Positions 4,816-33,989 of a DNA stretch of 37,340 bases are shown piece by piece. Numbering within the stretch: position 1 is the first letter of the stretch; the number at the start of each line of letters is the position of its first letter. Under the pieces are notes generated by a model. The model saw nothing but the letters and a program-made list of their open reading frames with translations. It ran no database searches and was not told where the DNA came from. The translations under genes and the position numbers were made by a program. Origin of the DNA: a virus; the IMG/VR virus record IMGVR_UViG_3300034691_000029, positions 1 to 37,340 of that record, one strand, 5' to 3'.

Positions 4816-6945
4816 ATGTCAACCAGTCAGAATCCGTTCATCCGTGATCACGCAGAATATAAACGTGACATCGATATCAAGCCCGCTGTAATCGATCAAA
4901 TTTCCAAGTACGTCAGCCTACGTCTGAAGATCAGTCATAAAGAAGCAACCGAGTGGATATTGCAGAAACTTAAAGACCCGCAATGGAGAATTAAGGACCC
5001 AACTCTGGAACGTCTGTTGCGTAAAGGTCCGGGTTGGCGCATCGAGGATGAGACTACGTTCTTGTCCTACATTGAAGAGATCATCGACAACAACTGGATC
5101 TTGTCGCCCGCACTGGTCGCGTACAAGCAAGCAGAAGATGAACTCTCCCCTATTGCTGAATGGCAAGAAGATAACATCGCTGCGCGTAAGAAGTCTAAGA
5201 CTAACATGTTTGTGCTTAAACAAGCAGGTCAGTTGCTTAAGTCCGCTCTTGCCGACTATGACCAAAACGCCCGGAAGATTCGAATCAACGCCGTCTCTGG
5301 ACAACATGGTTCAGAAGGTAACCCTCTTTTTCAAGCCACTGGTCACTACAGCCTCACAGCGCTCTGCCGAGCTGCGGCGGGTTATGGTAACGGTACCGTA
5401 GAGAGGTTCCTGACGGGGAGTAAACACTACCATACCCCAGAGATAGCAAAAGCAAATCTGGTGGCGATCTTGACGATGGAAGACAAAGATCGCTTTAAAG
5501 AAGCCATGGAACTGTACGAGTTGGTTTATCCGTCTGTGGATGACGTGCTGGCAATGGTTGAGCGTTCGACTAGCCTGTACTGGGAGTCTCCAGAAGAGTC
5601 AGCCATCATTCGTGACTGTATTACCGGCATGACCGATCTGGAACGTGCAATCGTTACCTATTCGGGTGACATGTTCCACTTGGCCAAATACAACCCTGAC
5701 ATCATTCGTGAGTTCATGGGTGAGATGATCATTGACGACATCTCCACAATGCCTGAAGTAGATACGGACGCTGAGCTCAAGACCATGAACTCAACTGACG
5801 TGGCTTACATCAACGCCTTGTGTGCTGACATCATGATCGGCTCTGACCACAAACGGGTTAAGGTCGACAATCCTGCCGGTTGGCAAGTGATTGGTAAAAC
5901 AGCGCGGCGCTTTAAGGATGTGATGAGTCGGTTCCGCCCACTCATTGCCACCTTCTTTGTGCCACGTCACTTGCCGCCTACTGTAGCGTCTCTGAAGGGC
6001 ATTCAGCGCCGTGCTTGCTTGGCAGCCGATACTGACTCCTCCATCTTTACCTGTGAGTCTTGGGTGAAGTGGTATTCGGGCGATCTGGTGCGTGGTCGTA
6101 CTCAAGACCGTATCTGGTACCTGACCACCTACATGGCGTGTCAGTGTATCGCTCACTCGTTGGCTATGTTGTCGGCTAACGTGGGTGTTGAAGCCAAGAA
6201 CCTCTTCCGCCTGGCAATGAAGAACGAGTACGCGTTCCCTGTATTCGCTCTGACTAACTTGGCTAAGCATTACTTCTCGCTGATTTCAATGCGTGAGGGT
6301 AACGTTTACGAGAAGATGGCACTTGAGATCAAAGGGGTGGAATTGCGTGGGTCTACCATGCCAAAAGAAACCCTGGACGCAATGAGCGACTTGATGGAAG
6401 AAATCCTCAATGCCGTTAACGAAGGTCGTAAGCTGAACGCTAAAGCCATGTTGACCGCTATTGCCGAACGTGAGATCGAAACCATTCGGTCTATTAAGCG
6501 TGGTGAGTATAAGTACCTCAAGTCCGCCCAGATCAAACCCAACAGTGATAAGATCGTTCACTTTCAACTGTGGCAAGAAGTATTTGCCCCTAAATACGGT
6601 GAGTCGGTACAGCCACCATTCCCAGTGGTGAAGGTGACAACTGAGCTGACCAACAAGACCTTGACCAAGGAATGGCTGGAAAGTATCGAAGACCGTGATT
6701 TGGCCGATCGGATGATTGAGTGGTTTAATAGAACAGGTCGTGATAAGCTACCTACCATGTATCTGCCCACTCAGATCGTGCGTAACAGTGGCCTGCCTGT
6801 GGAGATCCAGGAAGCTGCTAACGTGCGCAAGTTGGCCTACCAGATCAATAGCGGCTTCTATCGCCTCTTGGAGTCTACTGGCCTTGCTATCGTTGACCGT
6901 AACCATCACCGCCTAGTCCATGACTTTTTGAGGATGACTGCATGA
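4816..6945 (+). CDS. Family B DNA polymerase, C-terminal half (palm motifs B and C, thumb)
   Basis: This is the catalytic second half of a divergent family B replicative DNA polymerase (709 aa), which would add dNTPs during phage genome replication. Motif B is visible as K154-x3-N158-A-x-S-G162, followed by the expected A-x-x-G helix (AAAGYGN). Motif C is D405-T-D407-S, whose aspartates bind catalytic metal. A KxY-type motif is K484-H-Y486, followed by KGVELRGSTMPK, which aligns well by eye with the equivalent T4 gp43 region. I see no exonuclease motifs and no motif A (DxxSLYP), so the N-terminal half must be encoded elsewhere. The B-to-C spacing of about 240 residues is much longer than in T4. 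The ATG lacks a clear Shine-Dalgarno sequence. The next gene overlaps it as ATGA. Confidence 0.85.
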   Translation: MSTSQNPFIRDHAEYKRDIDIKPAVIDQISKYVSLRLKISHKEATEWILQKLKDPQWRIKDPTLERLLRKGPGWRIEDETTFLSYIEEIIDNNWILSPALVAYKQAEDELSPIAEWQEDNIAARKKSKTNMFVLKQAGQLLKSALADYDQNARKIRINAVSGQHGSEGNPLFQATGHYSLTALCRAAAGYGNGTVERFLTGSKHYHTPEIAKANLVAILTMEDKDRFKEAMELYELVYPSVDDVLAMVERSTSLYWESPEESAIIRDCITGMTDLERAIVTYSGDMFHLAKYNPDIIREFMGEMIIDDISTMPEVDTDAELKTMNSTDVAYINALCADIMIGSDHKRVKVDNPAGWQVIGKTARRFKDVMSRFRPLIATFFVPRHLPPTVASLKGIQRRACLAADTDSSIFTCESWVKWYSGDLVRGRTQDRIWYLTTYMACQCIAHSLAMLSANVGVEAKNLFRLAMKNEYAFPVFALTNLAKHYFSLISMREGNVYEKMALEIKGVELRGSTMPKETLDAMSDLMEEILNAVNEGRKLNAKAMLTAIAEREIETIRSIKRGEYKYLKSAQIKPNSDKIVHFQLWQEVFAPKYGESVQPPFPVVKVTTELTNKTLTKEWLESIEDRDLADRMIEWFNRTGRDKLPTMYLPTQIVRNSGLPVEIQEAANVRKLAYQINSGFYRLLESTGLAIVDRNHHRLVHDFLRMTA

Positions 6946-25070: not shown

Positions 25071-25109
25071 AGAGGTGGGGGTAACCCCACCTCTTCTACC
25101 CTGTTTTTT
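25071..25109. terminator. Bidirectional terminator between convergent genes
   Basis: AGAGGTGGGG (25071-25080) pairs with CCCCACCTCT (25085-25094) around GTAA, with GTTTTTTA following on the plus strand up to the minus-strand gene's stop codon. Confidence 0.8.
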
Positions 25110-29692: not shown

Positions 29693-29737
29693 CTCACCGC
29701 CGGGAGCAATCTCGGCGGTGAGTATGTTTTATTTTTT
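29693..29737 (+). terminator. Strong Rho-independent terminator after beta' C
   Basis: A 13-bp stem (29693-29705 with 29710-29722, one G-T pair) is closed by GCAA, followed by TTTTATTTTTT at 29727-29737. Confidence 0.88.
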
Positions 29738-29793
29738 AACATAAACGCCTAATCCTCTGAGAGTAACTATGCCGTAAGCTTCGGGGGTTCATT

Positions 29794-31317
29794 TTGAAAA
29801 TAGATGTCTACAGCCATGGCTTTTCGGTAACAGAACTTAACACTGCTCAGGAAAAGAAAGCCCTTGAGCAGTTCTGCACGCCGTTGATTCTGTTCGAAGA
29901 GAAAACGTTCGAAGGCGGAATCACTCGCATGGTGCCGTCTAAGACCTTCGCAGCGTCAAACGCGGCCCGTGATTACTACCGTTTTCACGTCAATCTGCTG
30001 AGAGAGTTTCAGCAGATGGTAGCGTACTGCCAGATTAAGCGTGACGATGTACAGATTACTCGACACCCCGTAGTCATTGATGACAGCTTTCGGGTTGAGT
30101 TCATTGAGAACAAGCTACACCCACCTCGTGATTATCAGGAAGAGATCATTGAGTACAACCTTGCCGCTGGGTCTAACAAAGTAATCACCCTCCAAGCGGG
30201 TGGTGGTAAAACACTGTTGGCTCAGCACACCATGAAGCGACTGGGTTATCGGACCAGTATCATGATGAAGGGTGGGTATCTGGATCAGTGGGTGTCAAGC
30301 CTCGATATGGCGTTCAAGTTCGGCCGCGGTGGCTTGGTCAAGATTCAAGGCTCTATCGCGCTGCACACGATCATGCAGATGGCTATCGATGGGGATGAGT
30401 TGCCAATGTGCATGCTTATCTCGATTAACACCTTCTCTGAGTACATCAGGGAGTATGAGCGTAACGGTGTGTCACAGATGTATCCTATCGCCCCTCATGA
30501 GTTCTTTGAGGTGATGAAGATCGGGTTGAACATCTTCGATGAAGGACACCAGTTCCCGCATCAGGTAATGAAGCTGTTTGTCTACACCCACATTGAAAAG
30601 TTCATGACGCTGTCTGCAACGCTTGAGACGCGCAACAAGTTCATGAATCGGATCTATGAGATCATGTACCCCAGGTGTGACCGTTTTGATGCGGGGTATA
30701 GGAAAGTCTATATCTCTGCCTCTGCGGTCTTCTGGCAACTGAAGGACTCTAAGTCAATCAGGTACACTGGGTATAAAGGTGCGTATTCACATGTAAAATT
30801 TGAAGAAAGCATGATGCTGTCAAAGAACAGAAAGATCTTGGCGAATTACGTAGACATGATCTGCGCGTTTGCTGAGTCTGAGTTCATCAGCGTTATGGAG
30901 AAAGGTCAGAAGATGCTTATCTTTTGCGCCACCGTAAAGTTCTGTACGATGCTGGTAAAAGAGATTCAGAAACGTTATCCACACATGGACACTACCCGCT
31001 ATGTATCGGCGGACAAGCGTACTGTGATGGATAAAGCTGACATCATCGTTAGCACAGTGCTCTCAGCAGGTACTGCGGTGGATATCCCTAACCTACGGGT
31101 AACGTGGATGACCACCGCCATTGACTCTCAACAGGCGAATGAACAGGCTCTGTATCGGACACGTCCTTTGGTGGATTGGCCAGATCAGATCCCTCGTTTC
31201 ATTTACTCTGTATGTAGCACTATTCCAAAACATGTTGCTTACCACTTGAATAAAGTTACCGCTTGGAAACTTTTGGTCAAAGAACATGGTAGGATGCAAT
31301 CTCCAATAAGTGTTTAA
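29794..31317 (+). CDS. UvsW-like superfamily 2 DNA helicase
   Basis: This 507-aa ATP-dependent helicase has motif I A135-G-G-G-K139-T140, motif II D249-E-G-H252, motif III S274-A275-T276, and a motif V/VI region (STVLSAGTAVDIP, then QQANEQALYRTRP). The build resembles T4 UvsW, which unwinds branched recombination and replication intermediates and R-loops. Translation starts at TTG 29794 after a strong GGGGGT at 29783-29788; no ATG gives the complete N-terminus. Its last 13 codons and stop (31276-31317) are a diverged copy of 32124-32165, beyond the GIY-YIG gene, so its present 3' end was probably supplied by that element. Confidence 0.88.
   Translation: MKIDVYSHGFSVTELNTAQEKKALEQFCTPLILFEEKTFEGGITRMVPSKTFAASNAARDYYRFHVNLLREFQQMVAYCQIKRDDVQITRHPVVIDDSFRVEFIENKLHPPRDYQEEIIEYNLAAGSNKVITLQAGGGKTLLAQHTMKRLGYRTSIMMKGGYLDQWVSSLDMAFKFGRGGLVKIQGSIALHTIMQMAIDGDELPMCMLISINTFSEYIREYERNGVSQMYPIAPHEFFEVMKIGLNIFDEGHQFPHQVMKLFVYTHIEKFMTLSATLETRNKFMNRIYEIMYPRCDRFDAGYRKVYISASAVFWQLKDSKSIRYTGYKGAYSHVKFEESMMLSKNRKILANYVDMICAFAESEFISVMEKGQKMLIFCATVKFCTMLVKEIQKRYPHMDTTRYVSADKRTVMDKADIIVSTVLSAGTAVDIPNLRVTWMTTAIDSQQANEQALYRTRPLVDWPDQIPRFIYSVCSTIPKHVAYHLNKVTAWKLLVKEHGRMQSPISV
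31276..31317 (+). repeat. Direct repeat copy 1: in-frame helicase C-terminus
   Basis: This copy encodes VKEHGRMQSPISV plus TAA, and is the end currently used by the helicase. Its partner is 32124-32165. Confidence 0.85.
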
Positions 31318-31319
31318 TG

Positions 31320-31345
31320 TAAGCCGGGGAGAAATCCCCGGCTTA
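31320..31345 (+). terminator. Terminator-like hairpin inside the homing element
   Basis: TAAGCCGGGGA and TCCCCGGCTTA form a perfect 11-bp stem closed by GAAA, three bases after the helicase stop. No long T-run follows, so it may act as an mRNA 3' end or reduce read-through to the endonuclease. Confidence 0.65.
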
Positions 31346-31364
31346 TGTCATTAAGGGGGCGTTC

Positions 31365-32123
31365 ATGAAAACAAAAGTTCCAAGACTTCCTGGGGTTTAT
31401 GTAATCACACATGAACCAACTGGGATTTACTATGTTGGAAGTACAGGGAATTTATACGAAAGGCGTTCTAACCATATTGCTGAGCTTAAGCAGCACCGTC
31501 ATGTAAATAGGAGACTCCAAGACACATGGGGTGGGTCATTGGATGATTACACATTCAAATTTGAAGCGTGTGATAGTCGAGATGAGGCTCTTGATCTTGA
31601 ACAGGAGGTTCTCGACAAACTTTGGGGCATGTTTCTATGTGCAAATGTAGGTAATGACGCGAGGATAGGTTGGAAGCACGGCACGATGCCTCCAGAGCTA
31701 TTAAATAAACATAGCCAACACCTAAACGAAATTAGAGGACTGCGGGACTATTCCATTCCGTATACGCATACAGAAGAATCAAAAGAAAATATGCGTCGCG
31801 CTTGGTCGTTAAGGCCTAAAGAATCTATCCGCAGAGGATTTGCGCATTCGGCTGAAACTAGAGCAAAGATTTCAGAAGCTCTAACGGGACTGCCCGGTCG
31901 TAAAGGCGTTCCTCACACCGGTCAGGCTTTAGAAAATATGCGGGCTGGTTTTAAAGAAGCCGGTATAAAGAAAAGCCGCAAAGTTTCTCTAGATGGGGTG
32001 GTTTATAACAATGCTGAATATGCGTCGCGTGAACTTGGAGTAACTAGAAGAACCATTGTTCTTAGAATCCAATCGGAAAATGAACAATATGCAAATTGGT
32101 TATATGTGGAAAGAACCCAGTGA
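31365..32123 (+). CDS. GIY-YIG homing endonuclease (SegA-E / I-TevI type)
   Basis: A 252-aa free-standing endonuclease. Residues 10-25 hold the paired GVY...YYVG signature, R34 matches the catalytic arginine of I-TevI, and a glutamate in LEQEVLDKL (E79 or E81) is the likely metal ligand. After the nuclease domain come NUMOD3-type repeats (TEESKENMRRAW near 140 and SAETRAKISEAL near 165) and a C-terminal NUMOD1-like helix-turn-helix (NNAEYASRELGVTRRTI), which would recognise the target. The gene is A/T-rich with A/T-ending codons, unlike its neighbours, supporting recent arrival. GGGGGC precedes the ATG. It sits between two copies of the helicase 3' end. Confidence 0.92.
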   Translation: MKTKVPRLPGVYVITHEPTGIYYVGSTGNLYERRSNHIAELKQHRHVNRRLQDTWGGSLDDYTFKFEACDSRDEALDLEQEVLDKLWGMFLCANVGNDARIGWKHGTMPPELLNKHSQHLNEIRGLRDYSIPYTHTEESKENMRRAWSLRPKESIRRGFAHSAETRAKISEALTGLPGRKGVPHTGQALENMRAGFKEAGIKKSRKVSLDGVVYNNAEYASRELGVTRRTIVLRIQSENEQYANWLYVERTQ

Positions 32124-32165
32124 GTCAAAGAACACGGAACCATGCAATCACCCATTAGTGTTTAA
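32124..32165 (+). pseudogene. Displaced native 3' end of the helicase gene
   Basis: This 42-base remnant reads VKEHGTMQSPISV plus TAA and begins at the base after the GIY-YIG stop codon. It has no start signal and is followed seven bases later by a hairpin that probably was the helicase's own terminator. It is the likely ancestral end of the helicase, now untranslated. Confidence 0.75.
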
Positions 32166-32171
32166 GCTATT

Positions 32172-32192
32172 GGTGGGGGTGACCCCACCTTT
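32172..32192 (+). terminator. Hairpin, probably the original helicase terminator
   Basis: GGTGGGG (32172-32178) pairs with CCCCACC (32183-32189) around GTGA, followed by TTT. The T-run is short. Confidence 0.6.
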
Positions 32193-32216
32193 ATGCTGCA
32201 TGTAGGAGACCGCATC

Positions 32217-32438
32217 GTGATAAAAGATACAAAACTATCAATGCTCGAAGGACCTGACCTGCTTTATGTATACGGTGAGTTGTTAGCGCTATGCAAAAGC
32301 AGTGATTTAAACCCAGATACATTTCTGGCACTGATGTTAAAGATGCAGTGCGAAAGAAACATCGCCTTATTAAAGATCACGCCAGGGCCTGAAGATACTT
32401 TGAGGATGGTTCAGTCGCTGATCGACAAACCGACATAA
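32217..32438 (+). CDS. Small unknown protein (73 aa)
   Basis: Function not recognised. I use the GTG at 32217 because TAGGAG (32203-32208) lies eight bases upstream; an in-frame ATG at 32193 lies just after the preceding hairpin and lacks a ribosome binding site. The protein is helical (GPDLLYVYGELLALCKS and LALMLKMQCERNIALLK), with no membrane segment or motif. It ends inside a short tandem repeat and just before a strong terminator. Confidence 0.65.
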   Translation: MIKDTKLSMLEGPDLLYVYGELLALCKSSDLNPDTFLALMLKMQCERNIALLKITPGPEDTLRMVQSLIDKPT

Positions 32439-32450
32439 ACCGACATAAAC
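32427..32450 (+). repeat. Short tandem repeat at the end of the 73-aa gene
   Basis: AAACCGACAT is repeated 2.4 times. The first unit carries the gene's stop codon, so the extra unit lies outside the coding sequence and is probably replication slippage. Confidence 0.6.
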
Positions 32451-32451
32451 C

Positions 32452-32500
32452 GCATACACCTCCGGCATTAGCCGGAGGTGTATGCCTCTATCTTTTTTTT
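32452..32500. terminator. Strong bidirectional terminator at convergent genes
   Basis: A perfect 15-bp stem (32452-32466 with 32471-32485) is closed by ATTA, followed by TCTTTTTTTT on the plus strand. The minus-strand operon ends immediately to the right. Confidence 0.9.
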
Positions 32501-32501
32501 G

Positions 32502-33989
32502 TTACTGGCCGTGGACAGTGTAGAAGTTCACGACGTTCATACGCTGTTCTTCAGTCGCGTAGCGCAGCATGTGGACGATCTTGTGCTGCTTGGCGTCCTG
32601 CATGCGGGTAGCGCCGTTACGGGTGTTGATCAGCAAGGTCAGCACGTCTTCAAACGTTGCCAGTGTGGTACTTGGCAGTTTGATCTGCGCCCAACCTTTA
32701 CGCGCACGCTCTGGAGTGAACAGCGTGTTGTATTCGGTGTTCACGAAGTTCAGCAGTTTTACCCACCCTTCCTGGAAGGTCTGTGGATCGCGTTTCAATA
32801 CATCGAGGATGATGCTCCAAAGCGAGGCTTGAGCTTCGCCAGCGGAAATTGCGCTCAGCACTTTGCCTTGTGGCGTCATGGCTGCCTTGAATGAGCTGAG
32901 TCTTGCGTCCAGAATCGAATCGTCCATTGTTGCCTCATCAGTGTTGGCGTTAAGACTCTCAAGAATTTTCTCTTGGGAGGTGGCGTTAGAAAGACCCAGG
33001 CGGGAGCGCAGTGCGCTGACCAGATCGTCTTTGCTGTGCGTACCAATTTCGATCTCGCCCAACAACCCAGCTTTGATGTCTTTGAACGCCCAGTGGTTCA
33101 GTGGCGTGTTATCGCGGGCACGGTCGGTGATCAATACACCGCTCAAGGTATATTCTGGCTTGACGCCAGTAGCGATGAACACTGCGGCCGATTCAAGAGC
33201 CCAGTTGGCTGGGAGCTTATAGCGGCGATACAGTTCATCAGCCAGCGCTTCAGCCAATACGTTACGCGGTGTGTTGATCTCACCATTGAGCCAATCAACC
33301 AACGCACCGTCGGTCCAGGTGGTCATGTCTTTGGTACGACGAAGATCCACCGGCCATTCATTGTGGCTGGTCTTTACTGGCAGCATGCGCTTTTCTTCAA
33401 ACAGGATCAGAGCCTTGTTATCCAAAGCTGCCAAAGCATCAGCTTCCAGCAAGCCAGCCAGCCGTTGACGAATAGGCAAGGTGGCATGATCCTGAACGGC
33501 TTCTTCTACCGGTGTCGGCGCAGGAATGGGCTCAGGCTCGGTGACCACTGTTTCGGTGACAGGGTCTGGTGCAGACTCGGTGGTCGCATCACCTGCCGTG
33601 CCTTGCTCATCCGGTTGATCCACAGCTGGTGCTTCATCGACACCGCTTTCAAGGATTGGCGCATTGGTTACCTCGATGCTGACGACGCCATCGGCACTGA
33701 TGGCGTCAGATGGAACTACGAATACCTCTTCCGCTACATCGCCCAGCGTTTGAACCGGCGGCGCATTATCGAGCAGTAGATCGGACTCCAGTCCTGAGAC
33801 ATCTTCATCTCCAGCCCCAGATTGATCGCTACCCACATCGCTGCTATCTTCATTGCTGTTCTCCGGACCCTCTGTGAGGTCCTGTGCGTCAGTTTGGGAG
33901 GTTTCGTTATCTTCTACGTCCTGACCTTGCAGGTCAGCGCTATCGCCAGGCGTAGGGGTGTTGGATTGACCACGGTTCTTTCTGGACAT
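32502..33989 (-). CDS. Probable virion protein with long acidic N-terminal region (495 aa)
   Basis: Function not recognised. The first about 170 residues are acidic, Pro/Glu/Asp-rich and surely disordered. Residues about 170-495 are a folded helical domain (from LPIRQRLAGLLEAD). Codons are C-ending, as for an abundant product. It is last in a minus-strand operon with a virion RNA polymerase fragment, which suggests a structural or inner-body protein. The acidic region contains S/A-x-E tripeptides (for example SIE), the kind of site cut by the phiKZ prohead protease, so it could be a removed propeptide. GAGGTAG precedes the ATG. Confidence 0.75.
   Translation of the reverse strand: MSRKNRGQSNTPTPGDSADLQGQDVEDNETSQTDAQDLTEGPENSNEDSSDVGSDQSGAGDEDVSGLESDLLLDNAPPVQTLGDVAEEVFVVPSDAISADGVVSIEVTNAPILESGVDEAPAVDQPDEQGTAGDATTESAPDPVTETVVTEPEPIPAPTPVEEAVQDHATLPIRQRLAGLLEADALAALDNKALILFEEKRMLPVKTSHNEWPVDLRRTKDMTTWTDGALVDWLNGEINTPRNVLAEALADELYRRYKLPANWALESAAVFIATGVKPEYTLSGVLITDRARDNTPLNHWAFKDIKAGLLGEIEIGTHSKDDLVSALRSRLGLSNATSQEKILESLNANTDEATMDDSILDARLSSFKAAMTPQGKVLSAISAGEAQASLWSIILDVLKRDPQTFQEGWVKLLNFVNTEYNTLFTPERARKGWAQIKLPSTTLATFEDVLTLLINTRNGATRMQDAKQHKIVHMLRYATEEQRMNVVNFYTVHGQ

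Follow-up and report, generated by a model that had tools for sequence, protein, structure and literature searches.

The window, as we call the whole 37-kb stretch of DNA analysed here (37,340 nucleotides from IMG/VR, a fragment from a single metagenomic virus record), contains a helicase gene whose 3′ end is present twice, once in frame and once stranded on the far side of an endonuclease gene. We read this arrangement, with a probability of roughly 0.85, as a gene-end-substituting homing element, in which a free-standing GIY-YIG gene travels together with the helicase 3′ end upstream of it and a stem-loop. The features of the locus, in window positions, are the following.

29794-31317, + strand: helicase gene, 507 aa, TTG start at 29794 and stop at 31317; SF2/UvsW-like (phrog_16 DNA helicase, E=1.5e-30)
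31138-31314, + strand: putative imported (co-converted) helicase 3′ tract, 59 codons, from a GC3 shift; upstream edge approximate
31276-31317, + strand: copy 1, the in-frame helicase end (putative replacement end), GTCAAAGAACATGGTAGGATGCAATCTCCAATAAGTGTTTAA, encoding VKEHGRMQSPISV and stop; from repeat comparison and codon usage
31319-31346, + strand: stem-loop after copy 1, -24.4 kcal/mol, z -4.6, unique in the window; then TTATG (31343-31347)
31365-32123, + strand: GIY-YIG homing endonuclease gene, 252 aa; Pfam, phrog_314 and structure profile matches
31392-31619, + strand: GIY-YIG nuclease domain, aa 10-85; PF01541 and conserved residues
31968-32105, + strand: I-TevI-type DNA-binding domain, aa 202-247; Pfam and 1i3j match
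32124-32165, + strand: copy 2, the displaced, untranslated and presumably native helicase end, GTCAAAGAACACGGAACCATGCAATCACCCATTAGTGTTTAA, corresponding to VKEHGTMQSPISV and stop; from repeat comparison
32172-32189, + strand: stem-loop after copy 2, -18.5 kcal/mol, then TTTATG; near-identical twin at 25074-25091 after another gene
32193-32438, + strand: small ORF, 81 aa from ATG, or 73 aa from GTG at 32217 with an upstream GGAG; absent from the relative L002
32452-32485, no strand assigned: bidirectional terminator between convergent genes, -31.6 kcal/mol, then T8; conserved in L002 at 5390-5440

The helicase, whose start was aligned with that of L002, has as its homologues those of phiKZ-like jumbo phages. 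In a tblastn comparison with 272 phage records the top match was Pseudomonas phage pPa_SNUABM_DT01 (42%), and the gene adjoins phage RNA polymerase beta-type subunit genes, the same neighbourhood as in that phage. A nucleotide search of phage isolates for the whole locus and a scan of genome contigs for helicase relatives gave no match. Given the phiKZ-like helicase homologues, and a PhuZ-like tubulin encoded in the record of the nearest relative, L002, the lineage of the window is very probably nucleus-forming, which a stretch as short as the window does not show by itself. Another homologue of the helicase (L018:3980-6235) carries an in-frame insert of ~240 residues at the Walker A motif (GGGKR/CDDSW...FIVTHN/T), which looks like an intein; this would be another kind of mobile element within the gene.

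As the first-pass annotation of this DNA had claimed, the last 13 helicase codons and the stop occur twice, at exactly 31276-31317 and 32124-32165, and the second copy lies outside the helicase frame, its first base being the one directly after the endonuclease stop, with zero gap. The copies match at 35 of 42 bases and their likeness ends at both edges of the 42 bases. Recounting the seven differences gave the same figures as before: none in first, one in second and six in third positions, with a single residue changed (R/T). The pair was returned as family D2 in a repeat search of the window, where the second-best 42-base match to copy 1 reaches 23/42, and the chance expectation for a match of at least 35/42 on both strands is ~2e-10 (binomial).

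L002, a 248-kb record, shows the locus in an uninterrupted form. Its helicase is 82% identical in amino acids to that of the window, synteny holds on either side of the site (76.4% nt over window positions 29727-31307 and 67.6% over 32446-33450), and its one helicase end runs straight into the conserved bidirectional terminator. There is no endonuclease or second helicase end at this locus in L002, and no PF01541 match in the whole record; compared with it, the window has an extra endonuclease cassette and the extra 81-aa ORF. This ORF, which has no family match (Pfam, PHROG) and no relative that we could find, separates the displaced helicase end from the conserved terminator and has a small tandem repeat at its stop region (ACCGACATAA twice). 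The comparison with an endonuclease-free relative had been proposed as a test by the first-pass annotation, and the single end of L002, together with the downstream context in L014 described below, supports its claim that the 3′ end of the helicase was invaded and replaced by a homing GIY-YIG element. A search with the helicase-end peptide pattern matched only L002, whose end agrees with copy 1 at 30/42 and with copy 2 at 29/42 bases (hand count). Since L002 is equally far from both, the copies diverged from each other after the split from L002, and their sequences do not set the polarity of the exchange, which in the window rests on context; among the relatives found, no endonuclease-free phage is near enough to the window to show the native copy by sequence.

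The ORF between the copies is, by its sequence, an I-TevI-like GIY-YIG endonuclease, putative as to cleavage. Its Pfam matches are GIY-YIG (E=2.6e-9), NUMOD3 (1e-6) and I-TevI_DNA-bd (1.1e-6), with PF01541 at 37.7 bits against a cut-off of 22.6, and PF07460 (29 bits) and PF20987 (28.9 bits) both above cut-off; it also matches phrog_314 (homing endonuclease, 5e-21) and the I-TevI profiles 1mk0 and 1i3j. In an alignment with the endonucleases of L014 and L029, the G-Y and Y-G motifs, R33, H37, E79 and N94 are conserved, and R33, E79 and N94, presumably the equivalents of I-TevI R27, E75 and N90, are invariant among the three. A single-protein scan for relatives of this endonuclease found none. 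I-TevI relatives often reside in introns and relatives from the td intron are among the matches, as might be expected if copy 2 were the downstream exon of a group I intron (or intein) and the upstream sequence supplied an alternative end. We rejected this model, whose chances we consider negligible: there is no Rfam intron match even at E<=1, no ribozyme core fits into the 47 bases from the helicase stop to the endonuclease ATG or the 0 bases after the endonuclease stop, and with copy 1 the gene is already complete, stop included.

The context within the window points to the copy-1 side as the foreign one. Of the two stem-loops, only the one after copy 2 belongs to the window's own type, and this one is probably the native module of the helicase end. 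Strong stem-loops followed by TTATG or TATG form a recurrent gene-boundary module in the window (4711, 7999, 13666, 29680, 31318 and 32166), also seen 3′ of the helicase in L008-L015; TATG is what we take to be the late-promoter motif of phiKZ, and the module is probably an RNA 3′ end combined with a late promoter. The element had earlier been said to have brought a terminator, and a strong stem-loop does follow copy 1, but it belongs to a stem-loop plus TTATG module, not a U-tract terminator.

Base composition shifts on the same side. The last 59 helicase codons have a GC3 of 0.34 vs 0.58 for the gene (permutation p=0.001), the AT3-rich tract extends ~46 codons upstream of the repeat, and the L002 helicase has no AT3-rich tract of like strength. 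This shift fits an import far longer than the 13 duplicated codons, and the imported tract in the window is probably ~59 codons long. Among 13-codon stretches of the window's genes, codon usage places copy 1 in the lowest 0.4% and copy 2 in the lowest 1.5%, which weakly favours copy 1 as foreign, both copies fitting the window's genes poorly. The earlier description of a recoded end holds insofar as the replacement end is synonymous and encodes nearly the same residues, but not in its extent of 13 codons (~59 in the window by GC3, 32 in L019 by comparison), and a diverged allele from a related phage is a better reading of copy 1 than a recoded version. A search of viral contigs for the exact copy-1 junction with its stem-loop, as a possible donor, found none.

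Independent cases in related phages give the polarity by comparison with intact relatives. In a survey of 24 related virus records we found 18 GIY-YIG places, or 19 loci with the window. The PF01541 matches upstream of the helicase in G006 and G007 seemed doubtful, and nothing here draws on them. A duplicated gene end brackets the endonuclease at 4/19 loci (the window, L014, G014 and G022), in all four within 0-100 bases. Some homologous pairs are present in the survey's null distributions, which makes the P values approximate, and it is the comparison with intact relatives that carries the cases; every displaced end was found on a metagenomic contig. In L014, the helicase ends in ...HGVEQAPISV and stop, followed by a stem-loop and a GIY-YIG ORF that itself ends in ...PRYPEYN/HGVEQAPISV and stop, the old helicase end serving as the endonuclease's own C-terminus. 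The L014 copies differ at seven bases, 7/7 in third positions. Copy 2 runs on into CGCAAGAGCCGG...CCGGCTTTATGCCCCAT, a stem-loop and downstream bases as in the endonuclease-free L011 and L015 (84-85% nt to L014), whereas copy 1 is followed by an unrelated stem-loop, unlike in those two. The downstream context, matching L011 and L015, shows the stranded copy of L014 to be native.

In G014 the order is a dCTP deaminase gene with a foreign tail, a second deaminase gene, the GIY-YIG gene and, directly after the endonuclease stop, the original end of the deaminase, present without interruption in G013 (EGHVV/IEVANVSNSPVRCYLEEGIAQ..., 93% aa). At L062:3366-3938, the second dCTP deaminase gene, flanked by the foreign tail of the first gene and by the endonuclease, is complete, as if it were cargo of the homing element. 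G022 is a mirror image: a native phuZ start with its leader is stranded before the GIY-YIG gene and a divergent start follows it, and G013 has the intact phuZ start and leader. This displacement of the phuZ tubulin start and upstream leader by a GIY-YIG gene lies at ~5660-6500 of L053 (reverse complement), where phuZ probably also received a new promoter region. Judged against these intact relatives, the native piece in L014, G014 and G022 is the one lying beyond the nuclease. Copy 2 of the window would likewise be the native helicase end, as the helicase, dCTP deaminase and phuZ cases and its own stem-loop suggest.

In isolated phages, none of 15 GIY-YIG genes belonging to this broad family is flanked by a convincing end duplication, so the arrangement is not universal; a score in CHPC1109 was rejected as a low-quality, out-of-frame match. 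The endonucleases at the same helicase site in L029, L016 and L019 have no stranded helicase end either. In L029 (5599-6330), the GIY-YIG gene comes right after the helicase and a second helicase-type stem-loop lies beyond, as if the join had been made at the stop codon.

The opposite polarity, with copy 1 native and copy 2 brought by the element as downstream flank from a donor with an interrupted helicase, would be compatible with the window copies, which are indecisive when taken alone (30/42 and 29/42 to L002). We nevertheless hold it unlikely, as the intact relatives show the reverse in L014, G014 and G022, a stem-loop of the window's own type follows copy 2 and a unique one copy 1, and the composition shift lies on the copy-1 side. 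Slippage or unequal exchange might also have duplicated the helicase end locally, the endonuclease landing between the copies later and the copies drifting; a short direct repeat would fit this, as would the lack of helicase translation from copy 2. We judge this very unlikely, given that the differences fall in third positions (6/7 in the window, 7/7 in L014), as expected of two once-coding alleles, that the repeat brackets the endonuclease closely in 4/4 duplicated cases, that the AT3-rich tract reaches well upstream of the repeat, and that the in-frame copy is the foreign one in L014 and in the dCTP deaminase and phuZ cases. Finally, a metagenome assembler could have merged strains with and without the endonuclease, the window being a single metagenomic record. 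The same architecture, however, recurs in three other records, in different genes and with different junctions, and the displaced end in L014 forms the endonuclease's own C-terminus, which makes such an assembly chimera highly improbable.

Transfer of a helicase end together with its flank can be seen in L019. The last 32 codons of its helicase are identical to those of L016 (93/93), while the body is 81% identical; with its sister L020, in contrast, those codons agree at 60/93 (65%) and the body at 94% (Fisher 1e-8 and 1e-15 for the end-versus-body contrasts). The identity with L016 continues through the stem-loop up to the GIY-YIG gene. On this comparison the L019 helicase is a natural chimera, sharing its end with the endonuclease-bearing L016. 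Both records carry truncated GIY-YIG ORFs of 104 aa, with the nuclease domain only, 3′ of the helicase (L016:5597-5911 and L019:5162-5476). These are ~81-88% identical, and as 30/41 of their differences are in third positions they look maintained instead of decaying. One simple transfer is insufficient here, because the endonuclease genes are ~81-88% identical as against 100% for the stem-loop and the end of the helicase; a second, later exchange of that end may have taken place.

Returning to the gene-end-substituting element, we propose a mechanism for which the comparisons show the architecture and the transfer of gene ends, while cleavage position, copy-1 resistance, repair route and donor identity are what we infer. 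In a co-infecting phage whose helicase gene is uninterrupted, the enzyme would cut close to the 3′ end of that gene. The severed helicase body would then invade the donor helicase, and the donor 3′ end, stem-loop and endonuclease gene would be copied, with homologous exchange within the helicase body on one side. On the far side, the product would be joined ~39 bases before the old stop, so that the old end (copy 2) is stranded. With almost the same residues encoded by the imported end, the helicase protein would stay intact, and the sequence differences of that end would make the new gene resist the enzyme.

The closest known parallel is found in yeasts. WHO elements occupy the FBA1 locus of Torulaspora and Lachancea, and in the model for them cleavage of a sensitive allele is followed by repair from the donor, which brings in the resistant gene end together with the nuclease gene, and the old end remains as a downstream fragment (PMC7282813). 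This model fits the locus described here, and the T4 work cited below contributes its phage side. Shared with the phage elements are a nuclease gene downstream of a host gene whose 3′ end was exchanged for a diverged allele, a remnant of the former 3′ end on the other side of the nuclease gene, an essential host gene (metabolic in WHO) and the lack of splicing. The chimeric host gene is seen directly in the L019 helicase, the G014 deaminase and the G022 phuZ; in the window the GC3 shift over 59 codons makes it probable. WHO elements differ in their HO/LAGLIDADG-type nucleases, eukaryotic nuclear genomes, tandem clusters, and tested cleavage and resistance, whereas the phage elements have GIY-YIG nucleases with predicted cleavage, occur singly and, in the phuZ case, replace a gene start. 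The window element works like WHO but is not a member of the family, because its nuclease is unrelated (GIY-YIG, not HO/LAGLIDADG).

Fungal mitochondria provide a second parallel in the mORFs of Glomus atp6, atp9, cox2 and nad3, Allomyces atp6, Rhizopus atp9 and Mortierella cox2 (PMC3630166). There, too, an endonuclease ORF lies between an inserted and a displaced native C-terminal, the native ends match a close relative, and the Glomus atp9 case has a GIY-YIG nuclease (PMC3630166). Unlike the phage elements, mORFs are organellar and their hybrid genes are partly fused with the ORF. That the native C-terminal lies downstream, as in mORFs, is shown by downstream context in L014 and by sequence in the G014 deaminase; the window copies are equidistant from L002. 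Beside the Allomyces case named in the first-pass annotation, precedents include the Glomus mORFs (PMC3630166) and, above all, the yeast WHO elements (PMC7282813).

Among phages, the Seg endonucleases of T4-like phages are also free-standing GIY-YIG genes between conserved phage genes; they spread through double-strand-break repair, during which flanking markers are co-converted, and one-sided illegitimate repair has been described for td (PMC2988022). Their sites, however, are hundreds to thousands of bases from the gene, and this T4 review has no stranded gene end or end substitution (PMC2988022). The gp210 intron endonuclease of PhiPA3 likewise belongs to the nucleus-forming lineage and has as its target an essential gene in a co-infecting relative, but it is encoded and resides in an intron, with no gene-end substitution (PMC11620839). 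A study of ICP1 (PMC10448857) and passages from a review of nucleus-forming phages (PMC12908238) gave no phage case of gene-end substitution. The earlier statement that no described case was known in a nucleus-forming lineage agrees with our search of the open-access literature, in which we found no such case in any phage, although a report may have gone unnoticed. Gene-end-substituting elements were found described only in fungi; what is new here is WHO-like homing with a GIY-YIG nuclease in phages.

In nucleus-forming jumbo phages, we think it likely that such elements have repeatedly rewritten the 3′ or 5′ ends of the essential helicase, dCTP deaminase and PhuZ tubulin genes, leaving the genes chimeric and sometimes adding a cargo gene. 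Free-standing homing endonucleases are usually pictured between genes or in introns and inteins; here they become part of an essential gene's end or start, carry an allele along and leave datable molecular scars. Stranded gene ends are in this way a means to scan phage genomes for past homing events. Such homing also explains abrupt gene-end chimeras between jumbo phages thought to be genetically isolated by the nucleus, and extends a mechanism of yeast and fungal mitochondria to bacterial viruses.
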